Assembly: GCF_900078675.2 (NCBI RefSeq)
Contig: NZ_LT546237.1
Location: 4,317,341 to 4,353,908, forward strand
Reading direction: 5' to 3'
DNA: 36,568 bases
From: Mycobacterium interjectum
GTDB lineage: Bacteria; Actinomycetota; Actinomycetes; Mycobacteriales; Mycobacteriaceae
Part shown: piece after piece, positions 26,598 through 32,794 of the stretch
How positions within the stretch are numbered: position 1 is the stretch's first letter
Layout of the letters: every line of letters starts with the position of its first letter
Notes under the pieces: generated by a model
Told to the model about the DNA's origin: nothing
Databases searched by the model: none
The model's input: only the letters and a program-made list of their open reading frames with translations
Made by a program: the position numbers and the translations under genes

Positions 26598-27014
26598 ATG
26601 GACCTCCAGCGGCCGATGCCCGTCAAAACGCCGACCACCGCGCCATTTTGGGATGCGCTGGCGCAACACCGCATCGTCATCCAGTACTCGCCGTCGTCGC
26701 AGACCTACGTGTTCTATCCGCGGGTGCGCGCGCCGCGCACGCTAGCCGATGACCTGGAGTGGCGGCAGATATCCGGCATGGGAACGCTGTACTCGTTCAC
26801 CGTGGCCCGCCGCCCCGTCGGCCCGCACTTCGCCGACGCGGTTCCGCAGCTGCTGGCCATCGTCGAATGGGATGAGGGCCCACGGTTTTCCACCGAGATG
26901 GTGAACGTCGAGCCGGAAGCCCTGCGGGTGGGGATGCGGGTGCGGCCGGTGTTCTTCGACTACCCCGAGCACGACGTCACCATGCTGCGGTACGAGCCGG
27001 CCGAACAGGGCTGA
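26598..27014 (+). CDS. DUF35 OB-fold protein, zinc ribbon degenerate
   Basis: A 138-residue DUF35 protein. The N-terminal helix (KTPTTAPFWDALAQHRIVIQ) leads to the place where relatives have a four-Cys zinc ribbon. Here YSPSSQTYVFYPRVRAPR contains no cysteine at all. The OB-fold part follows, with GMGTLYSFTVARRPVGPHFA and MRVRPVFFDYPE. DUF35 proteins pair with Ltp thiolases as acyl-CoA binding or aldolase subunits. The gene starts 3 bp after the thiolase stop and is the last gene of the operon, converging on the LysB-like gene. Confidence 0.87.
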   Translation: MDLQRPMPVKTPTTAPFWDALAQHRIVIQYSPSSQTYVFYPRVRAPRTLADDLEWRQISGMGTLYSFTVARRPVGPHFADAVPQLLAIVEWDEGPRFSTEMVNVEPEALRVGMRVRPVFFDYPEHDVTMLRYEPAEQG

Positions 27015-27029
27015 CCGCGACGCTTCGGT

Positions 27030-28025
27030 TCAGCTACGCAGTCGATCGCGCATCCAAGCGACTCCGCCGCTGATGTCGTACGGGGAGTAGTGCGGATTGG
27101 GCTGGTCGCCCAGGAACGCCACGCCGCTCACGATGGCCTTGACAATCGCCAAGACCTCCTCGACCGGCTGCCCGAACAGGATGGCGATCTGCGCGGCGAC
27201 GGAGAACGGGTTGGAGAAGAAGTCGGCGCGCGCCACGGCCTGGTACACGGCGGCCTTCACCTCACTCGATTTGTCGTCGGTGTTCTCGGCGAAGATGTCG
27301 CCCTCGCGGTACACGTCAACCCAGAAATCGGGCTTGTCCGGGCAGCCGGGCAGCCCGAACCGCCGGATCGGGTCGAGCCCATGGCTGCCGGCTTGGGTGA
27401 TCCACGACCGGGCCCAGTCGGCGATGCTGTCGGCCTGGCGGCCTGGAGTACCATAGGCCAGAACGCCTTTCAGATCCGGCGTTCGCCACGCCAGCGGCTT
27501 ACCGGGTGCCAGGTAGTCGAAGTAAAAGTCGCAGATGACGATGCCGCCTTGGGAGAACCCGCCCAGCGACCAGGGCGTGCCTTTCGGGAAGGGTACGAGG
27601 CTATCCATGACCTCGGAGCCGACGAGCCGGGCCAACTCGTTGACACCGCTGGCGTTGTCGAACGGAATCGGGCCGTTGTTGTAACCGATCGGCTGGTGGT
27701 GACACAGGCCTTCGGCCTCGAGTTGGCCGGCGGTGTCGGCGACCGGCCCGGCGAACATGTTCGAACTATGCCCTTCGACGGTGAACATGATGGGCCGCAG
27801 GCCCGGAGCCGGTGGCACGTATCCGACGCGGCTTGCCGTGGTGGCGTCGAATTCTCCCGATTGCGACAGGCCTAGGCGGCGCTGCATTTCCTTGACCGCG
27901 GCGACTTCGTCCTTGCCGTAGTAGCCGTCTTCCGGCGGCGCGTAGGCCCGGTACTCGCGCCTGAACCATGCCTGCCAGTATTCGATTTCCGGGCCATGGG
28001 ACCCGGGTTTGTAGGGGAGCGGCAT
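27030..28025 (-). CDS. LysB-like mycolyl-arabinogalactan esterase with PG-binding domain
   Basis: A 331-residue phage-type lysin B. Residues 8-68 form a peptidoglycan-binding unit (WFRREYRAYAPPEDGYYGKD, then AAVKEMQRRLGLSQSGEFDA). The alpha/beta hydrolase follows, with nucleophile Ser158 in WSLGGFSQGGIVICDF. Candidate acid and His are in VYREGDIFAEN and NPHYSPYDIS. LysB cleaves mycolate esters off arabinogalactan to open the mycobacterial outer membrane during phage release. There is no signal peptide, as in phages. The start is ATG with AAGGAG about 10 nt upstream. It is the third gene of a leftward cassette after the LysA-like gene, with no phage structural genes nearby. Confidence 0.88.
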   Translation of the reverse strand: MPLPYKPGSHGPEIEYWQAWFRREYRAYAPPEDGYYGKDEVAAVKEMQRRLGLSQSGEFDATTASRVGYVPPAPGLRPIMFTVEGHSSNMFAGPVADTAGQLEAEGLCHHQPIGYNNGPIPFDNASGVNELARLVGSEVMDSLVPFPKGTPWSLGGFSQGGIVICDFYFDYLAPGKPLAWRTPDLKGVLAYGTPGRQADSIADWARSWITQAGSHGLDPIRRFGLPGCPDKPDFWVDVYREGDIFAENTDDKSSEVKAAVYQAVARADFFSNPFSVAAQIAILFGQPVEEVLAIVKAIVSGVAFLGDQPNPHYSPYDISGGVAWMRDRLRS

Positions 28026-28070
28026 TTCGATGAATCTCCTTGAGGGTCGGTTGATTTGTGGGCGGCAGTC

Positions 28071-29591
28071 TCACCGCTTCTTTGCGGGGGCCTTTCGCGC
28101 CGGCGCCTTCTTGGCAGCCGCGGCCGCCCCGTTGCCGGCCGCAGGGATCACGATGCGGGGAGCCGCCTTCTTGCTGGTCGCCCGGGCAGCCTGGGTGAGC
28201 AGCACATCCAGGGCCGGCTGGTACTTGGCCAAATAGTCCACGATCGTCAGGTTGCCGAGCTGCGGCCAGCCGTGCCCGTAGCCGTCCGAGCCGACCGGCC
28301 CGGCCAGCTGCTCGTAGATGAGCCGCTGGTAGTCCGCCGGCACGCTGGGTATCACCAGCGGCGAGGGAGCCACCGGTGACGCGTCGCCCACTCCGAGCAC
28401 CGAGGCTAACTGGGATGGCGACAGGCCGTCGGCACTGTTCATGTCGCAGTTGCCGAAGGGTGGCGCCCCTTCGGGCAGGCCGCCTCCGTACCCTTGGCCG
28501 TCGGTGTATTGGTGCGCGACCTTGAACACGGCCGGGTCGTTGGGATTTGAGCCGTACCCCGCGATGATCATCGGCACGTGCTCTGGCCTGGTCTGCCACA
28601 TCTGGCGCATGTCGTTGAGGTTGCAATACCCGATGACGCGGCGCGCGTCGCCGAGCCACTTCGCCAGCCCGTAGTACATGCCGTTGACCGCGGCGCTTTG
28701 ATCGCAGCCGGGATTGCCATCTCCGCATTCCACGTCGATCATGGCGACCATCTTGGGGTGGGGGCCGCCGTTGGCGTTGATCTGATCCTGCAAGGTCGCC
28801 AGCGTTGCCTGCCAGTCAGGACGCCAGTAGGCGTAGACGATGAAGCCCTTGAGCCTGCCGTCGTCGGCGGCTTGGCTGCACCAGCCGTAGTTCTGGGCGA
28901 AGTTGTTGTCGCGGTGTGTTCCGTCGTTGGCTCTGATGGACAGCCAGCGATAGGGCCAGTCGATGCCGTCCTGGTTATACGTGGCGTCGGTGTAGGCGTC
29001 GGTCACCGGCACCTGGTGCTCGGACACGTCGGCGAACAACGTGTCCCGCGGCTCGCCTTGGGGCGCCGGAGCGCTTCCGCTGGGCTGGTGCGGGATCGGC
29101 GTGCCGTCCTCGACGATCGGGCCGGGTACGAACCACCAGTCGTTGGCGTAGGGGTTGTCCACCGCCATCGCCTGGTCGCGCAGCACGGTGCCGTTGTCGC
29201 CGTTGGTTTCCACGCGCAGATCGCCGATCTGGCACCACATGTGGGAGTTCATTCCGCCGCCGGGCCCGTGGTGCAGGGCAATCTTGATCGCGGCGTCGGC
29301 GGGAAACACGCTGGGGTTGGCTACCTGGACGGTGTGAAACGGGCCGTCGAGCGGGTTGGCCTGGCCGCCGTGCGACGGCGCGCGCCAGCTCTCCGTGCAA
29401 AGGCCGTGGCGCGACCACTCCATCGCGGTGCCGTTGATTCCGCCGTCAAGTTCGTCAACGACGCAGCCGGAGCAGTCGGTGCCCTTCTTGCGGTCAAAGG
29501 GGTCCCAGTTGCCGCCGTAGTCGTACGGGTTACCCGCGCGGTCGATGGCGATCTGCTGCCCGAAGGAAATGGTCTTGCGTGGCACCGGCAT
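28071..29591 (-). CDS. LysA-like endolysin: NlpC/P60-type peptidase plus GH25 muramidase
   Basis: A 506-residue modular lysin. Domain 1 (about 8-160) has a cysteine peptidase look, with Cys40 in GTDCSGCVVDE and His117 in GMNSHMWCQIGD. Domain 2 (about 185-395) is GH25, with Asp188 in LFADVSEHQ, the catalytic pair Asp286/Glu288 in AMIDVECGDG, and AHQYTDG..CDMNSADG near its end. A third part (about 420-465) contains the actinophage wall-binding motif GYGHGWPQLGNLTIVDYLA. The tail (473-506) is a Lys/Ala/Pro run ending KKAPARKAPAKKR. It would cut stem peptides and glycan of peptidoglycan. There is no signal peptide. AAGGAGG lies 8 nt before the ATG. Confidence 0.88.
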   Translation of the reverse strand: MPVPRKTISFGQQIAIDRAGNPYDYGGNWDPFDRKKGTDCSGCVVDELDGGINGTAMEWSRHGLCTESWRAPSHGGQANPLDGPFHTVQVANPSVFPADAAIKIALHHGPGGGMNSHMWCQIGDLRVETNGDNGTVLRDQAMAVDNPYANDWWFVPGPIVEDGTPIPHQPSGSAPAPQGEPRDTLFADVSEHQVPVTDAYTDATYNQDGIDWPYRWLSIRANDGTHRDNNFAQNYGWCSQAADDGRLKGFIVYAYWRPDWQATLATLQDQINANGGPHPKMVAMIDVECGDGNPGCDQSAAVNGMYYGLAKWLGDARRVIGYCNLNDMRQMWQTRPEHVPMIIAGYGSNPNDPAVFKVAHQYTDGQGYGGGLPEGAPPFGNCDMNSADGLSPSQLASVLGVGDASPVAPSPLVIPSVPADYQRLIYEQLAGPVGSDGYGHGWPQLGNLTIVDYLAKYQPALDVLLTQAARATSKKAAPRIVIPAAGNGAAAAAKKAPARKAPAKKR

Positions 29592-29645
29592 TCGTCGGCC
29601 CTCCTTAGTCTGTGTATGTGTTATTGCGGTCGGCCGTCAGCGTTT

Positions 29646-30371
29646 TCAAGCGGTCGCCTGAGCGAGCATCGCGTCGGTCTGCTCGAGCCGGCGGCGGGTG
29701 CGGGCGAACTTTCCCGCCTTCATTTCCTTGCGCCAGTCGGGAAACTCGTCGCCGAATTCTTGGTGCTCGCCCCCGGCGGCCTCGAAAACGACGTAGCCGC
29801 CCTTGAGAATGCTGAACGGGGCGTGCAGCTTACCCAGCTTGTCGTATTGGGCGGTGGCCTGATTGGACAGCGGGTCGAACCATGCCGGCGTCACGAAGTT
29901 CGACACCGACACGCCGTCGACGGCGTACGTCGGGGCCTCCACCGGATCGCACACCTCGAAGCTGTAGGCCTTGCCCCGTCCGTCGTTGGACCACAGGTTG
30001 CAGTTGGGGTCGATGAACATCTCGAGCACTTCGTGTGACAGGACGCTCGAGACGCTCCAGTCCCCCTTCGTCGCCGTCCCGCCGTTGTCGAGTTCGGGCT
30101 TGGCCGCGACCACGCCCCACAGCTTCCCGCCCCGGTCCTCGGTGTGGTAGCCGAGCACGCCGTCGGGTTGGTCCTTGATGGTGTCGACGAGTACGATGCC
30201 GTGCGCCGCCGGGGGCACGTCCTTGGCGTTGGTGTAGAAGATCACCGCCGCGGCGGCCCGATCCCACAGTGGCGCAACGTCCATTCGGACTTGCTTGGCG
30301 ATCGCCTGGGTCATGCCCGCGGCATCCGCGTTGGACACCAACTTCGACTGGTTGATAATCGCGATGAGCAT
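29646..30371 (-). CDS. Phage-type zincin-like protein with HEVLE motif, unknown function
   Basis: About 241 residues. It belongs to a family I have seen near lysins in phages and bacteria, but whose role I do not know. The N-terminus is MLIAIINQSKLVSNADAAGM, then VLGYHTEDRGGKLWGVV. The key motif VLSHEVLEMFIDPNCNLW (His113, Glu114, Glu117, Asp121) looks like a metal site (HExxE..D), followed by FEVCDPVEAPTYAVDGVSVS and NFVTPAWFDP. I chose the ATG at 30371 because AGGAG lies 7 nt upstream; the longer frame from 30413 has no such site. It is the first gene of the lysin cassette, 54 bp before the LysA-like gene. A protease role is possible but unproved. Confidence 0.75.
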   Translation of the reverse strand: MLIAIINQSKLVSNADAAGMTQAIAKQVRMDVAPLWDRAAAAVIFYTNAKDVPPAAHGIVLVDTIKDQPDGVLGYHTEDRGGKLWGVVAAKPELDNGGTATKGDWSVSSVLSHEVLEMFIDPNCNLWSNDGRGKAYSFEVCDPVEAPTYAVDGVSVSNFVTPAWFDPLSNQATAQYDKLGKLHAPFSILKGGYVVFEAAGGEHQEFGDEFPDWRKEMKAGKFARTRRRLEQTDAMLAQATA

Positions 30372-30435
30372 GTCCGGCTCCTGTCGTCGTGGATGTGGCA
30401 GAGAATGTGCCACCTCCCCGCGACCCGGCGCATGA

Positions 30436-30512
30436 GTAGTTGACTACGTCATCGCGTATGGAAGGGAGTTCTCGTTGGCTGCTTCGCAAGCAAGTAGCCG
30501 ACTACGCTACTT
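30436..30512. promoter_or_regulatory. Duplicated GTAG-NN-GACTAC motif in the lysin cassette divergent promoter
   Basis: GTAGTTGACTAC lies at 30436-30447 and GTAGCCGACTAC at 30494-30505. With flanks the two match over AGTAG-NN-GACTACG, 58 bp apart. The second copy is nested in a larger repeat, AAGTAGC (30492-30498) and GCTACTT (30506-30512). The pair sits between the zincin-like gene (leftward) and the membrane protein gene (rightward), so one regulator could control both. Confidence 0.6.
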
Positions 30513-30581
30513 CGGCCTCGCCTTCGGGAGTGATACTCGACGCGATTCTCTGGCCCGACCCGTTCACCCTGGGAGGAATCC

Positions 30582-31652
30582 ATGTCCACACCGCCGAACG
30601 CCGGCTCGACGCCGCCAGCCCCCACCTTCCGTGGCGACACGTGGAACGGCTTCCAGTCGGGACTGCCGAAGACGTGGCGGTCGACCTCGCCCTGGCGGCA
30701 AACGGTCCAACGCCGTCGCATCATGCTCCTGGACGACCTGGCCCGCCTCGAGCTGAAGAATCGTCCCGATCAGGAGCAACGCGCCTTTCTCATCAACAGC
30801 CTGCTGTCCGACGCCGGTATCGCGGCGGAATCCAACGTCGCTATCCGAAAGTGGTGGTGGGGCACCGAGATCGAGCGTGCCTGGGCGCGTCTCCATGAGG
30901 TCGAGGAGCGCACGGTCGATCTGCTGCCCGACTCGGAACTGCGCGCCCGCGGCAACGCAGCCTTGGCATATGCAAGCTTCCATCTTAAGGATGACAAGAG
31001 GCAAAAGGATCTGCAGGCGTTGCTGGCGGACCCGTCCCATATCGATACCGCGGAGCTGCGCCCGTCCATCGTCGGTGTTTTGCGCGCCGCGCACGACAAC
31101 TCTGATCGCAGCAACCAAGAGGCGCGGTATCTCAGGAACCGGTTCATCCTCGCGTCCGGTGTCTGCCTCTTTTTCACCACTCTGACCTTGTTGACCCAAC
31201 GGCTGTTCCGAGACGATCACTTCCTCCCCCTGCCCGACGACAGCTTCAAGGATGCGCCCTGGCAGTACCTGTTCCTGGTCATGTTCTTCGGGTCCGTCGG
31301 TGCGTTGTTCACCGCGATCCCGGCCATGTCCAAGGTGCCGCTGGGCCACAGTCCCTTCAATCTGCCGCTCCAGCAGGGCTTATTGAAACTTGTCCTCGGC
31401 CCGCTGGTCGCCGTTGTCGGGCTCTTGATCCTGGGCGCCGATGTGCTGCATGTCGGATCGTCGAACACGTTGATCGGTTGCCTGCTCCTCGCGACCATAT
31501 TCGGGGCGGGCCAGCATGCCGTCACCCGCTACGTCGACCAGCGTGCCATCGAAATCCTCACGGCGGATACGGATCCCGCGAACAGCAGTTCCGCGAACAA
31601 GGATCGACGCGCCGAGTTGACTCAGCGCAACGGCTCCGTCGGCACCCCGTAG
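30582..31652 (+). CDS. Multi-pass membrane protein, unknown function
   Basis: A 356-residue protein, not recognised. Residues 1-185 are soluble and charged, probably helical (LARLELKNRPDQEQRAFLIN and KWWWGTEIERAWARLHEVEE). About four hydrophobic helices follow: FILASGVCLFFTTLTLL, YLFLVMFFGSVGALFTAIPA, LVLGPLVAVVGLLILGADVL and LIGCLLLATIFGAGQHAV. The C-terminal tail is polar. It begins with ATG after GGGAGGAAT. It diverges from the lysin cassette and shares the duplicated motif region, so it may partner it, for example as an exit or regulatory factor (inference). Its last 31 bp overlap the convergent sulfotransferase gene. Confidence 0.8.
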   Translation: MSTPPNAGSTPPAPTFRGDTWNGFQSGLPKTWRSTSPWRQTVQRRRIMLLDDLARLELKNRPDQEQRAFLINSLLSDAGIAAESNVAIRKWWWGTEIERAWARLHEVEERTVDLLPDSELRARGNAALAYASFHLKDDKRQKDLQALLADPSHIDTAELRPSIVGVLRAAHDNSDRSNQEARYLRNRFILASGVCLFFTTLTLLTQRLFRDDHFLPLPDDSFKDAPWQYLFLVMFFGSVGALFTAIPAMSKVPLGHSPFNLPLQQGLLKLVLGPLVAVVGLLILGADVLHVGSSNTLIGCLLLATIFGAGQHAVTRYVDQRAIEILTADTDPANSSSANKDRRAELTQRNGSVGTP

Positions 31653-32794
31653 CGGTCCTGGTAGGCGCTGACGCGGTCGCGGACCTCGGCGGCATCCAGG
31701 CGGGTGTCCGACCACGTGTAACGGCTGCCCCCGCCATCCCCGGGATGGGCGGCCAGGAAATCCCGCATCTTTTGTGCGGTCTCGGGTTTCAGCTCTCGGC
31801 CCAGCTTCCGGTAGATGTCGTCGATCGTGGTCCACGGGTCGTTCATGAAATCGGTGAACAGCACGTCGATTACGCGGCCGGCGGGAATGGCGCCGGCGTC
31901 GCGCAGCGCCATTGCGCGGTCCAGGCCGACGACGATCTCCTCATAGGACTGGGCCGCGCACTCGGCGATGTCCGACTCGTCGCTGCCCATCCGCCGGAGG
32001 TGGTGGGTGAGCGCGGCGATCGACGAGATGACGTTGAGCGGATCGCGGTGGGCCTGGACGATCAACGCGTCGGGGTACTCGGCGAGCAGGTCGTCGAGGT
32101 GCCACAGGTGCGCCGGCGATTTCAGAAGCCACTGCCCGGGAACCCCGGACTGCAGGTGTTGCAGGAAGATTCGGTGAAAGCGGTAGGCGCCGGCATGGTC
32201 GGCCTCGTACAACAGCCAGCGGTAGTAGCTTGGCAGGCGGTACTGCACTGAGAAGATCATGCTGGTGAACTCGCTGGCGGTGATGCGCACGCACTCCTGC
32301 CCGACGAGGGCGCCCATCGGGTGAAACGCCAAGAAGCCGGGGATGATCTGTTCGGACATCTCGATGCTGGCCTGGGCCTGAGCGATGCGCGGATCGGTGT
32401 GATAGGTCTCCGGTTGCGGGACCGGACAGGGAGCGTCGACCTCCCAGGTCAGCGGCGCCCGCAGGTCAGGGTCCTGGGCGAGCAGGTCGTAGAGGATCGT
32501 GGTGCCGGTGCGCGGCTGGCCGACGATGAAGATCGGCGCGGTGATCGGCTTGCCGGCGATTCCGGGATGCTTTTTGCGCCAGGCGATCACGCCGAGCCGG
32601 TTCTTCAGGGCGCGGATGACGTCCAGGTAGGCGATCTCCACACCGATGGGCGAGAGCCGCGCCTCGCCGACCAGTCCGTCGGTGAGCCGCTGCAGTCCGG
32701 GCTGCCACCCGTCCGCGCCGAAGTCGTCGCTATCGGCCACCTCGCAGGCGGTGGCGATGAGTCGCTCCGGCGCGAACCGCTCGCTCAGGGTCAT
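31622..32794 (-). CDS. Sulfotransferase-family protein
   Basis: A 390-residue PAPS-dependent sulfotransferase-fold protein. The 5'-phosphosulfate loop is PIFIVGQPRTGTTILYDLL (about 86-104). The 3'-phosphate region is ALIVQAHRDPLNVISSIAAL, with the Arg and Ser expected to contact PAPS. Mycobacteria carry many such genes, often of unknown acceptor. Start at ATG 32794, whose last bases overlap the stop of the DUF1214 gene (ATGA), so the two are translationally coupled. The far longer open frame continuing upstream is antisense shadow and was not used. Confidence 0.9.
   Translation of the reverse strand: MTLSERFAPERLIATACEVADSDDFGADGWQPGLQRLTDGLVGEARLSPIGVEIAYLDVIRALKNRLGVIAWRKKHPGIAGKPITAPIFIVGQPRTGTTILYDLLAQDPDLRAPLTWEVDAPCPVPQPETYHTDPRIAQAQASIEMSEQIIPGFLAFHPMGALVGQECVRITASEFTSMIFSVQYRLPSYYRWLLYEADHAGAYRFHRIFLQHLQSGVPGQWLLKSPAHLWHLDDLLAEYPDALIVQAHRDPLNVISSIAALTHHLRRMGSDESDIAECAAQSYEEIVVGLDRAMALRDAGAIPAGRVIDVLFTDFMNDPWTTIDDIYRKLGRELKPETAQKMRDFLAAHPGDGGGSRYTWSDTRLDAAEVRDRVSAYQDRYGVPTEPLR

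Follow-up and report, generated by a model that had tools for sequence, protein, structure and literature searches.

The window analysed here, a stretch of 36,568 nucleotides from Mycobacterium interjectum (assembly GCF_900078675.2, contig NZ_LT546237.1, positions 4,317,341 to 4,353,908), contains a four-gene cassette that we are inclined to interpret as a domesticated and regulated module for self-lysis of the host, which combines two phage-type lysins (LysA and LysB) with a predicted metallopeptidase (Zin) and a predicted membrane protein (mem). An earlier note, made from the letters of the window alone, had described three leftward genes at 27030..30371, and these are present as open reading frames (ORFs) with the coordinates it gave: LysB (27030..28025, minus strand, 331 amino acids (aa)), LysA (28071..29591, minus strand, 506 aa), and Zin (29646..30371, minus strand, 241 aa). 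The fourth gene of the unit, the divergent mem (30582..31652, plus strand, 356 aa), was absent from that note, as were two palindromic elements located between Zin and mem. The suggestion in the note that these genes form a domesticated lysis module is well supported by the conservation of the locus and by the selection acting upon it.

Conservation and origin of the cassette

All four genes are found in the same order and beside the same five neighbours in six further species (M. terramassiliense, M. interjectum, M. paraense, M. alsense, and strains E3198 and 852002-50816), with no phage genes noticed around them; conservation of the trio with its neighbours in phage-free relatives is what the earlier note had proposed as a sign of domestication. 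The five neighbours are acyl-CoA dehydrogenase-like, thiolase-like, OB-fold, sulfotransferase-like, and DUF genes (all but the OB-fold gene named by inspection). The next gene beyond them is TetR-like and could be matched in half of these species (three). The 3' ends of mem and of the sulfotransferase-like gene overlap. LysA and LysB are maintained by purifying selection, much like these flanking genes. The median pairwise ratio of nonsynonymous to synonymous substitution rates (dN/dS) is 0.126 for LysB, 0.131 for LysA, 0.197 for Zin, and 0.221 for mem (computed from 6 sequences), with values of 0.104–0.169 among the five flanks. The synonymous rate (dS) is 0.26–0.27 for LysA, LysB, and Zin, on a par with four of the five flanks (0.25–0.27 over all of these genes), 0.38 for the thiolase-like gene, and 0.37 for mem. 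Since selection is evident at one site in seven species, the host presumably benefits from the cassette.

An empty version of the site exists as well. In genome G031, just 61 bp separate the matched flanks, and the cassette of 4.6 kb, which by this comparison extends over 27005..31625, is absent; the sulfotransferase-like gene beside the empty site is itself broken. Among 16 regions viewed around the OB-fold gene, the cassette was present in none and the same convergent neighbours were found in G031 only. As the earlier note had stated, the flanks are metabolic genes devoid of integrase, capsid, or tail genes: a PHROG scan of ten flanking genes yielded no structural or integration match, although three matched families of unknown function. 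Likewise, no tRNA is present in the window, and no common run of at least 10 bp, direct or inverted, was found between 26901-27100 and 31501-31750 as a candidate attachment (att) repeat. Because the cassette occupies an identical position in six other species, has low dN/dS and intact catalytic residues, lacks phage matches in its ten flanks, and has an empty counterpart, both a recent prophage and a decaying remnant were rejected. The note had named a nearby prophage or inactivation in most relatives as the findings that would contradict it; neither was encountered, although one relative, M. alsense, does carry a deletion in Zin. It had also taken base composition as a hint of foreign origin. 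Its counts of 37/60 and 43/60 guanine plus cytosine (GC) are correct, but 119 of 609 such lines of the window have 37 or fewer, which makes them a weak foreign sign. Overall, the GC content is 0.652 in the cassette and 0.678 in the rest of the window, with the lowest 1-kb value (0.629) over mem, whereas GC at third codon positions is 0.84–0.88 in the three leftward genes, 0.81 in mem, and 0.82–0.88 in the five near neighbours. With so slight a difference and unremarkable third positions, GC content was rejected as a sign of foreign DNA.

The four proteins

The LysB-like and LysA-like identities given in the note are both borne out. LysB resembles mycolyl-arabinogalactan esterases with an N-terminal peptidoglycan-binding domain, as it matches PHROG 102 (E 3.5e-64), the Pfam domain PG_binding_1, and PDB entry 3hc7, 'Gene 12 protein' (E 4.8e-8), which we take to be the LysB of phage D29. 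Its catalytic residues are intact, with Ser158 found in 25 of 26 aligned LysBs and Asp243 and His312 in all 26. A LysB 54% identical to that of the window is also encoded by L272, the M. intracellulare plasmid pM018, which is phage-like and carries portal and capsid genes. LysA matches the endolysin PHROGs 6707, 317, and 26250 and is 50% identical to the LysA of phage Bernal13 over 461 aligned columns. It appears to consist of an N-terminal peptidase-like part (C40/H117), a GH25-like muramidase (D188, D286/E288), a C-terminal motif, and a Lys/Ala-rich tail; because a Pfam scan of LysA gave no match, the peptidase and GH25 labels are based upon motifs. Of the residues concerned, C40, H117, and D286 are present in 31/31 LysAs and D188 and E288 in 29/31. 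By hydropathy, no N-terminal hydrophobic export signal was recognised in either lysin.

Identity to the window proteins peaks at 51% for phage LysAs and at 39% for phage LysBs among the matches listed, and no phage relative of 60% identity or above occurs among 765 LysA and 1818 LysB phage records. Phages of ~75 kb matching at 45–46% are presumably relatives of Kostya. LysA finds a match in 42 of 148 relatives, mostly to the GH25-like part alone, with full-length matches above 90% limited to the window genome and G017. A separate GH25-only gene of the window genome (G000 C4:4051852-4052781; L331 6853-7698) resembles the middle domain of LysA, and similar genes are widespread in the genus. The LysA tree groups the seven cassette LysAs with a second M. 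interjectum LysA in one clade (100/100), sister to two viral contigs (97/97). The LysAs of certain Mycolicibacterium loci that also encode patatins branch elsewhere, although a long-branch warning applies to them. The LysB tree places the cassette seven nearest to the LysBs of those same patatin loci (89/95, support incomplete). From the two trees, it seems that lysin capture took place repeatedly and was followed by different combinations.

For Zin, the zincin-like, phage-type protein of the earlier note, that description holds only in part. A metallopeptidase-like motif can be predicted (H76, HEVLE at 113-117, and EVCDPVE at 139-145), but it reads HEVLE instead of HExxH and no relative was found among 50,697 phages. 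The residues H76, H113, E114, E117, E139, C141, D142, and E145 are invariant in 26/26 diverse sequences, which fits a metal enzyme without proving one. No family in Pfam, PHROGs, NCBIfam, or PADLOC was matched above the cut-off (Pfam gave a sub-threshold C2c1 match only, E 0.063), a PDB sequence search produced no credible match, and the AlphaFold2 (AF2) model was too poor for a fold search (predicted local distance difference test (pLDDT) 43.5). Of 1442 database homologues, the 120 listed are 74–95% identical and mostly nameless, the few named ones coming from Mycobacterium, Streptosporangiaceae, Acidimicrobiales, and Ca. Nephthysia. Relatives in 30 viral contigs are just 28–46% identical, and it was due to this distance that Zin was rejected as a phage protein. 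In the genus, Zin is found in 12 of 396 genomes at E 1e-10, 7 of the 12 being cassette carriers, and a search of 346 genomes across the wider Actinomycetota at E 1e-20 returned only the two already known carriers. Zin begins at an ATG at 30371, although a longer GTG start at 30413 is possible. In M. paraense, a single ORF spans Zin and LysA (L005 7086-9530), and in M. alsense an in-frame internal deletion has removed residues 112-184, including the motif (L006 7454-7945). The 5' end of Zin contains a sigma-70-like match (30332-30359), which was disregarded.

The product of mem is a predicted integral membrane protein with an N-terminal helical domain followed by three clear and a possible fourth transmembrane helix according to hydropathy (AF2 pLDDT 83.5). 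No relatives of it were found in phages, plasmids, or viral contigs, and it has no PHROG match; neither mem nor Zin is a standard phage lysis gene, and no phage-type holin was recognised beside LysA and LysB. At E 1e-10, members of the mem family are encoded in 39 of the 396 genomes of the genus, 13 of them as strong matches (E below 1e-100). The contexts of all 13 were viewed: seven are this cassette and two (G054 and G323) include other lysins, such that a lysin is near 9 of the 13. Among nine remote mem loci fetched, an amidase-type LysA was found in L231 and L233 and a patatin-like gene with a caspase-domain gene in L238; the remaining loci gave no lysin match. In L233 and L235, genes for an M4-type peptidase, emfourin, chagasin, PLD, DUF5995, and DUF6345 are clustered near mem-like genes, some with a palindrome upstream, several of these genes being assigned by similarity or inspection only. 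One DUF6345 protein, as Pfam identifies it, had first been labelled 'catalase-like', a label since dropped.

Palindromic elements and the recurrence of cassette parts

An alignment of the interval between Zin and mem from the seven species contains two palindromic blocks. Element 1, GTAGTTGACTAC (30436..30447), lies 64 bp upstream of Zin, and its pattern GTAGT[TC]GACTAC (GTAGTYGACTAC) is found in six of the seven species, with one change in M. paraense; the core of element 2, GTAGCCGACTAC (30494..30505), located 76 bp upstream of mem, is identical in all seven. The motif GTAGTNNACTAC has six sites in the window genome compared to 2 for a reversed-pattern control, whereas a looser search allowing up to two mismatches gave no clear excess (20 matches versus 16 in the control). 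Across the genus, the perfect palindrome is present in 36 of 60 genomes, with 77 sites as opposed to 39 for its reverse (p 3e-4). Of the 77 sites, 42 were sampled; they come from 13 of the 60 genomes, mostly ones with multiple sites, although G041 with its three sites was omitted. In this sample, 30 sites are intergenic, against an expectation of 8%, and 26 lie no more than 150 bp upstream of a gene, against an expectation of 4.5%. Because the sites concentrate between genes and upstream of them, the palindrome is, as judged from its placement, a real and broader mycobacterial promoter-region element.

Lytic genes are among those that carry the element. In loci gathered by homology and excluding the window, it occurs near the start of 10/53 lytic-type genes and 4/215 others (p 2e-5), or 17/69 and 8/344 when the window and motif-chosen loci are included; the lytic-type set, which counts STAND-LuxR and DUF5995 as members, was defined with the site positions already in view, and a site between divergent genes is counted for both, making the Fisher p-values optimistic. 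The lysis-linked sites of the 42-site sample comprise two upstream of 98-aa-type genes, one of a patatin-type gene, one of an emfourin gene, and three within 0.5 kb of STAND-LuxR genes. Since unrelated genes carry the element too, membership of the lysis genes in this group is supported while a lysis-only regulon is not, and the notion that the palindrome marks lysis genes exclusively was rejected. In the window genome (G000), the GTAGTNNACTAC-type sites besides the window interval 30436-30505 are C3:715650, C3:794367, C4:2910124, C4:3270706, and C4:4292597. One of these is ~83 bp upstream of a gene for a 1025-aa membrane protein whose Patatin match is weak (Pfam E 8e-5, below the cut-off), one 59 bp upstream of an emfourin gene (E 4.8e-6), one 0.4 kb past the stop of a STAND-LuxR gene, and one 38 bp upstream of a gene for a 95-aa hypothetical protein. 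Another is 91 bp upstream of a 98-aa protein that is 36–39% identical to small proteins encoded near mem in G054 and G365, which together form a family of ~100-aa proteins (L338 5981-6277; L167 1168-1476; L231 10729-11028). A prophage LysA of M. litorale also has the palindrome just upstream (L011 7893).

As recognised by sequence similarity, the parts of the cassette recur in varied combinations with other lytic enzymes. Four Mycolicibacterium loci (L009, L010, L013, L066) contain LysB, a patatin-DUF3376 protein, and LysA together without recognised phage genes. Their patatin-DUF3376 proteins are 75–83% identical to that of L013, in which C-terminal membrane helices are seen, and a gene for a STAND-LuxR protein (91–94% identical) lies no more than ~110 bp after LysA at three of these loci and 4.7 kb away in L066. 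M. interjectum has a second set of patatin (61%), LysA, and LysB-type protein, with no STAND-LuxR gene in the 17.5 kb fetched. In G447 and G248, a patatin-type gene (35% and 56%, respectively) lies within ~15 bp after Zin (L414 3797-7568; L415 5588-10564), and no LysA or LysB of the window type was matched there; in G248 (L415), a divergent gene encodes a 257-aa protein matching part of the M23-type LysA of G006 at 36%. G054 encodes mem, LysB, and an amidase-type LysA in two copies at the ends of its chromosome sequence (L175/L176), at least one of them apparently frameshifted; by inspection, these copies adjoin TIR/STAND/WD40-type and caspase-like genes. Lastly, G323 combines a stop-bearing mem with an M15-type LysA, papain-type and M4 peptidases, and, by inspection, chagasin-like and emfourin-like genes.

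Mechanism, related systems, and rival explanations

If the cassette is a self-lysis module, as we favour, its operation can be envisaged as follows. A regulator acting upon the palindromes, for which the STAND-LuxR proteins encoded near such sites are candidates, would induce both transcripts. Phage LysAs usually require a holin, yet Kostya gp33, a LysA described as N4-GH25-C1, lysed M. smegmatis to a modest degree when its holin was absent (PMC3314691), a precedent for that domain type which speaks for the self-lysis interpretation. Because LysA and LysB themselves show no recognisable export signal, mem is proposed to provide the exit route: as a stand-in for a holin, it would disturb the cytoplasmic membrane and let both lysins out. 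LysA would then cut peptidoglycan and LysB would free mycolates from arabinogalactan, while Zin might cleave some protein, possibly as a way of switching on or timing the set. Ultimately, the producing cell would be lysed across its membrane, peptidoglycan, and mycolate layers. Stress lysis, DNA release, and phage exclusion may be among the benefits. Altruistic lysis, prey killing, and cargo release, all raised in the earlier note, would each be compatible with the sequence, which cannot separate them. A more ambitious extension is tentative and, in our estimation, somewhat doubtful: a STAND-LuxR protein on GTAGTCGACTAC could drive a host 'lysis regulon' of swappable parts (mem or a patatin attacker, endolysin, mycolate esterase, and peptidases with matching inhibitors) derived from captured phage lysins, which would burst the producing cell on command.

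A number of observations weigh against the self-lysis interpretation. With regard to mem, a fold search with its model found no usable relative, no lysin adjoins it at four of its 13 strong loci (G169, G413, G272, G336), and in G323 it has an internal stop. Zin may be dispensable, since its motif region is deleted in M. alsense. The dN/dS values demonstrate selection without revealing its target, and those of single pairs reach 0.43–0.44 for Zin and mem. As for regulation, most genes downstream of the 42 sampled sites are unrelated to lysis, no such site is present at the second M. interjectum cassette or the Zin-patatin loci, and no regulator is tied to the palindromes, STAND-LuxR being a candidate by gene proximity only.

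The mycobacteriophage lysis cassette (LysA, LysB, and holin, as in Ovechkin and prophiGD27-1) is similar in its homologous lysins, its intact residues, and its membrane, peptidoglycan, and mycolate targets, whereas the cassette described here lacks a recognised holin and surrounding phage genes, includes Zin and mem, and is chromosomal and vertically inherited. Domesticated lysis modules of defective prophages, such as DLP12 of E. coli and the P. aeruginosa and B. subtilis cases reviewed in PMC8987985, are likewise phage lysis genes kept by a host. The present cassette differs in residing outside any recognisable prophage, in its mycolic-acid envelope setting, in its non-phage membrane and peptidase-like partners, and in its recurring promoter element. 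LypABC of Caulobacter, with its CARD-NLR-like lysis control, is also host-encoded and involves STAND ATPases, but it is described as distinct from holin-endolysin lysis (PMC13236601), and the STAND link here is one of gene proximity only. The contractile-injection cell death of Streptomyces (PMC10066040, PMC10020575) is another case of actinobacterial death via phage-derived parts; no injection gene was noticed in our loci by eye, without a dedicated search. No such chromosomal mycobacterial set was found in the open-access literature by title and the start of the abstract, and the string GTAGTCGACTAC was not found in the open-access papers searched. To our knowledge, genetically programmed self-lysis in mycobacteria is an open question. 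A module that is under selection, is aimed at all three layers, and belongs to no recognisable prophage, and for which a promoter element and a regulator family can be put forward as candidates, makes it directly testable in M. smegmatis and, if the interpretation is correct, would be a source of host-tuned lysins adapted to act upon mycobacteria from the inside.

Several other explanations merit consideration. The lysins could instead serve housekeeping, trimming peptidoglycan and mycolate at low levels during stress or division with mem as their membrane-bound regulator and no lysis intended. We regard this as unlikely, even though the purifying selection resembles that of metabolic genes, mem occurs without lysins in four genomes, and the lysis module of DLP12, for which such a role has been proposed, offers a precedent (PMC7918800). 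Neither lysin has an N-terminal hydrophobic export signal by hydropathy, enzymes for both the mycolate and the peptidoglycan layer are kept, and the recurrence of the parts alongside patatins, peptidases, and peptidase inhibitors is more reminiscent of a destructive set. Abortive infection or antagonism, in which damage by a phage or competitor would trigger lysis or released LysA and LysB would harm neighbours or prey, seems less probable still. It draws upon the TIR/STAND/WD40-type gene (by inspection) adjoining mem, LysB, and amidase-LysA in G054, the caspase-domain gene adjoining a mem-like gene in G323, and the action of LysBs upon a layer specific to the mycolata. Despite this, none of the four proteins has a PADLOC match at E 0.01, which weighs against catalogued systems only, no sensor gene was recognised beside the cassette in the window, and a single fixed site in seven species is unlike typical defence islands.

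A passive remnant, in which the lysis genes of an old prophage have persisted and simply await loss, has the phage relatives of LysA and LysB in its favour, but it is highly improbable and already largely refuted by dN/dS values that match those of the flanking enzymes. The ten flanks are also free of phage structural matches, mem has no phage relative that we could find, and the palindromes are conserved. Finally, the cassette might be two adjacent units, with mem belonging to a separate membrane-protein family that lies beside Zin, LysA, and LysB by chance; mem is divergent, less constrained, broken in G323, and has no lysin nearby at 4 of its 13 strong loci. We nonetheless consider such a coincidence improbable, since mem keeps this neighbour in 7/7 species, a lysin is near 9 of the 13 strong loci (7 of them being this cassette), and a promoter region with paired elements is common to both arms.

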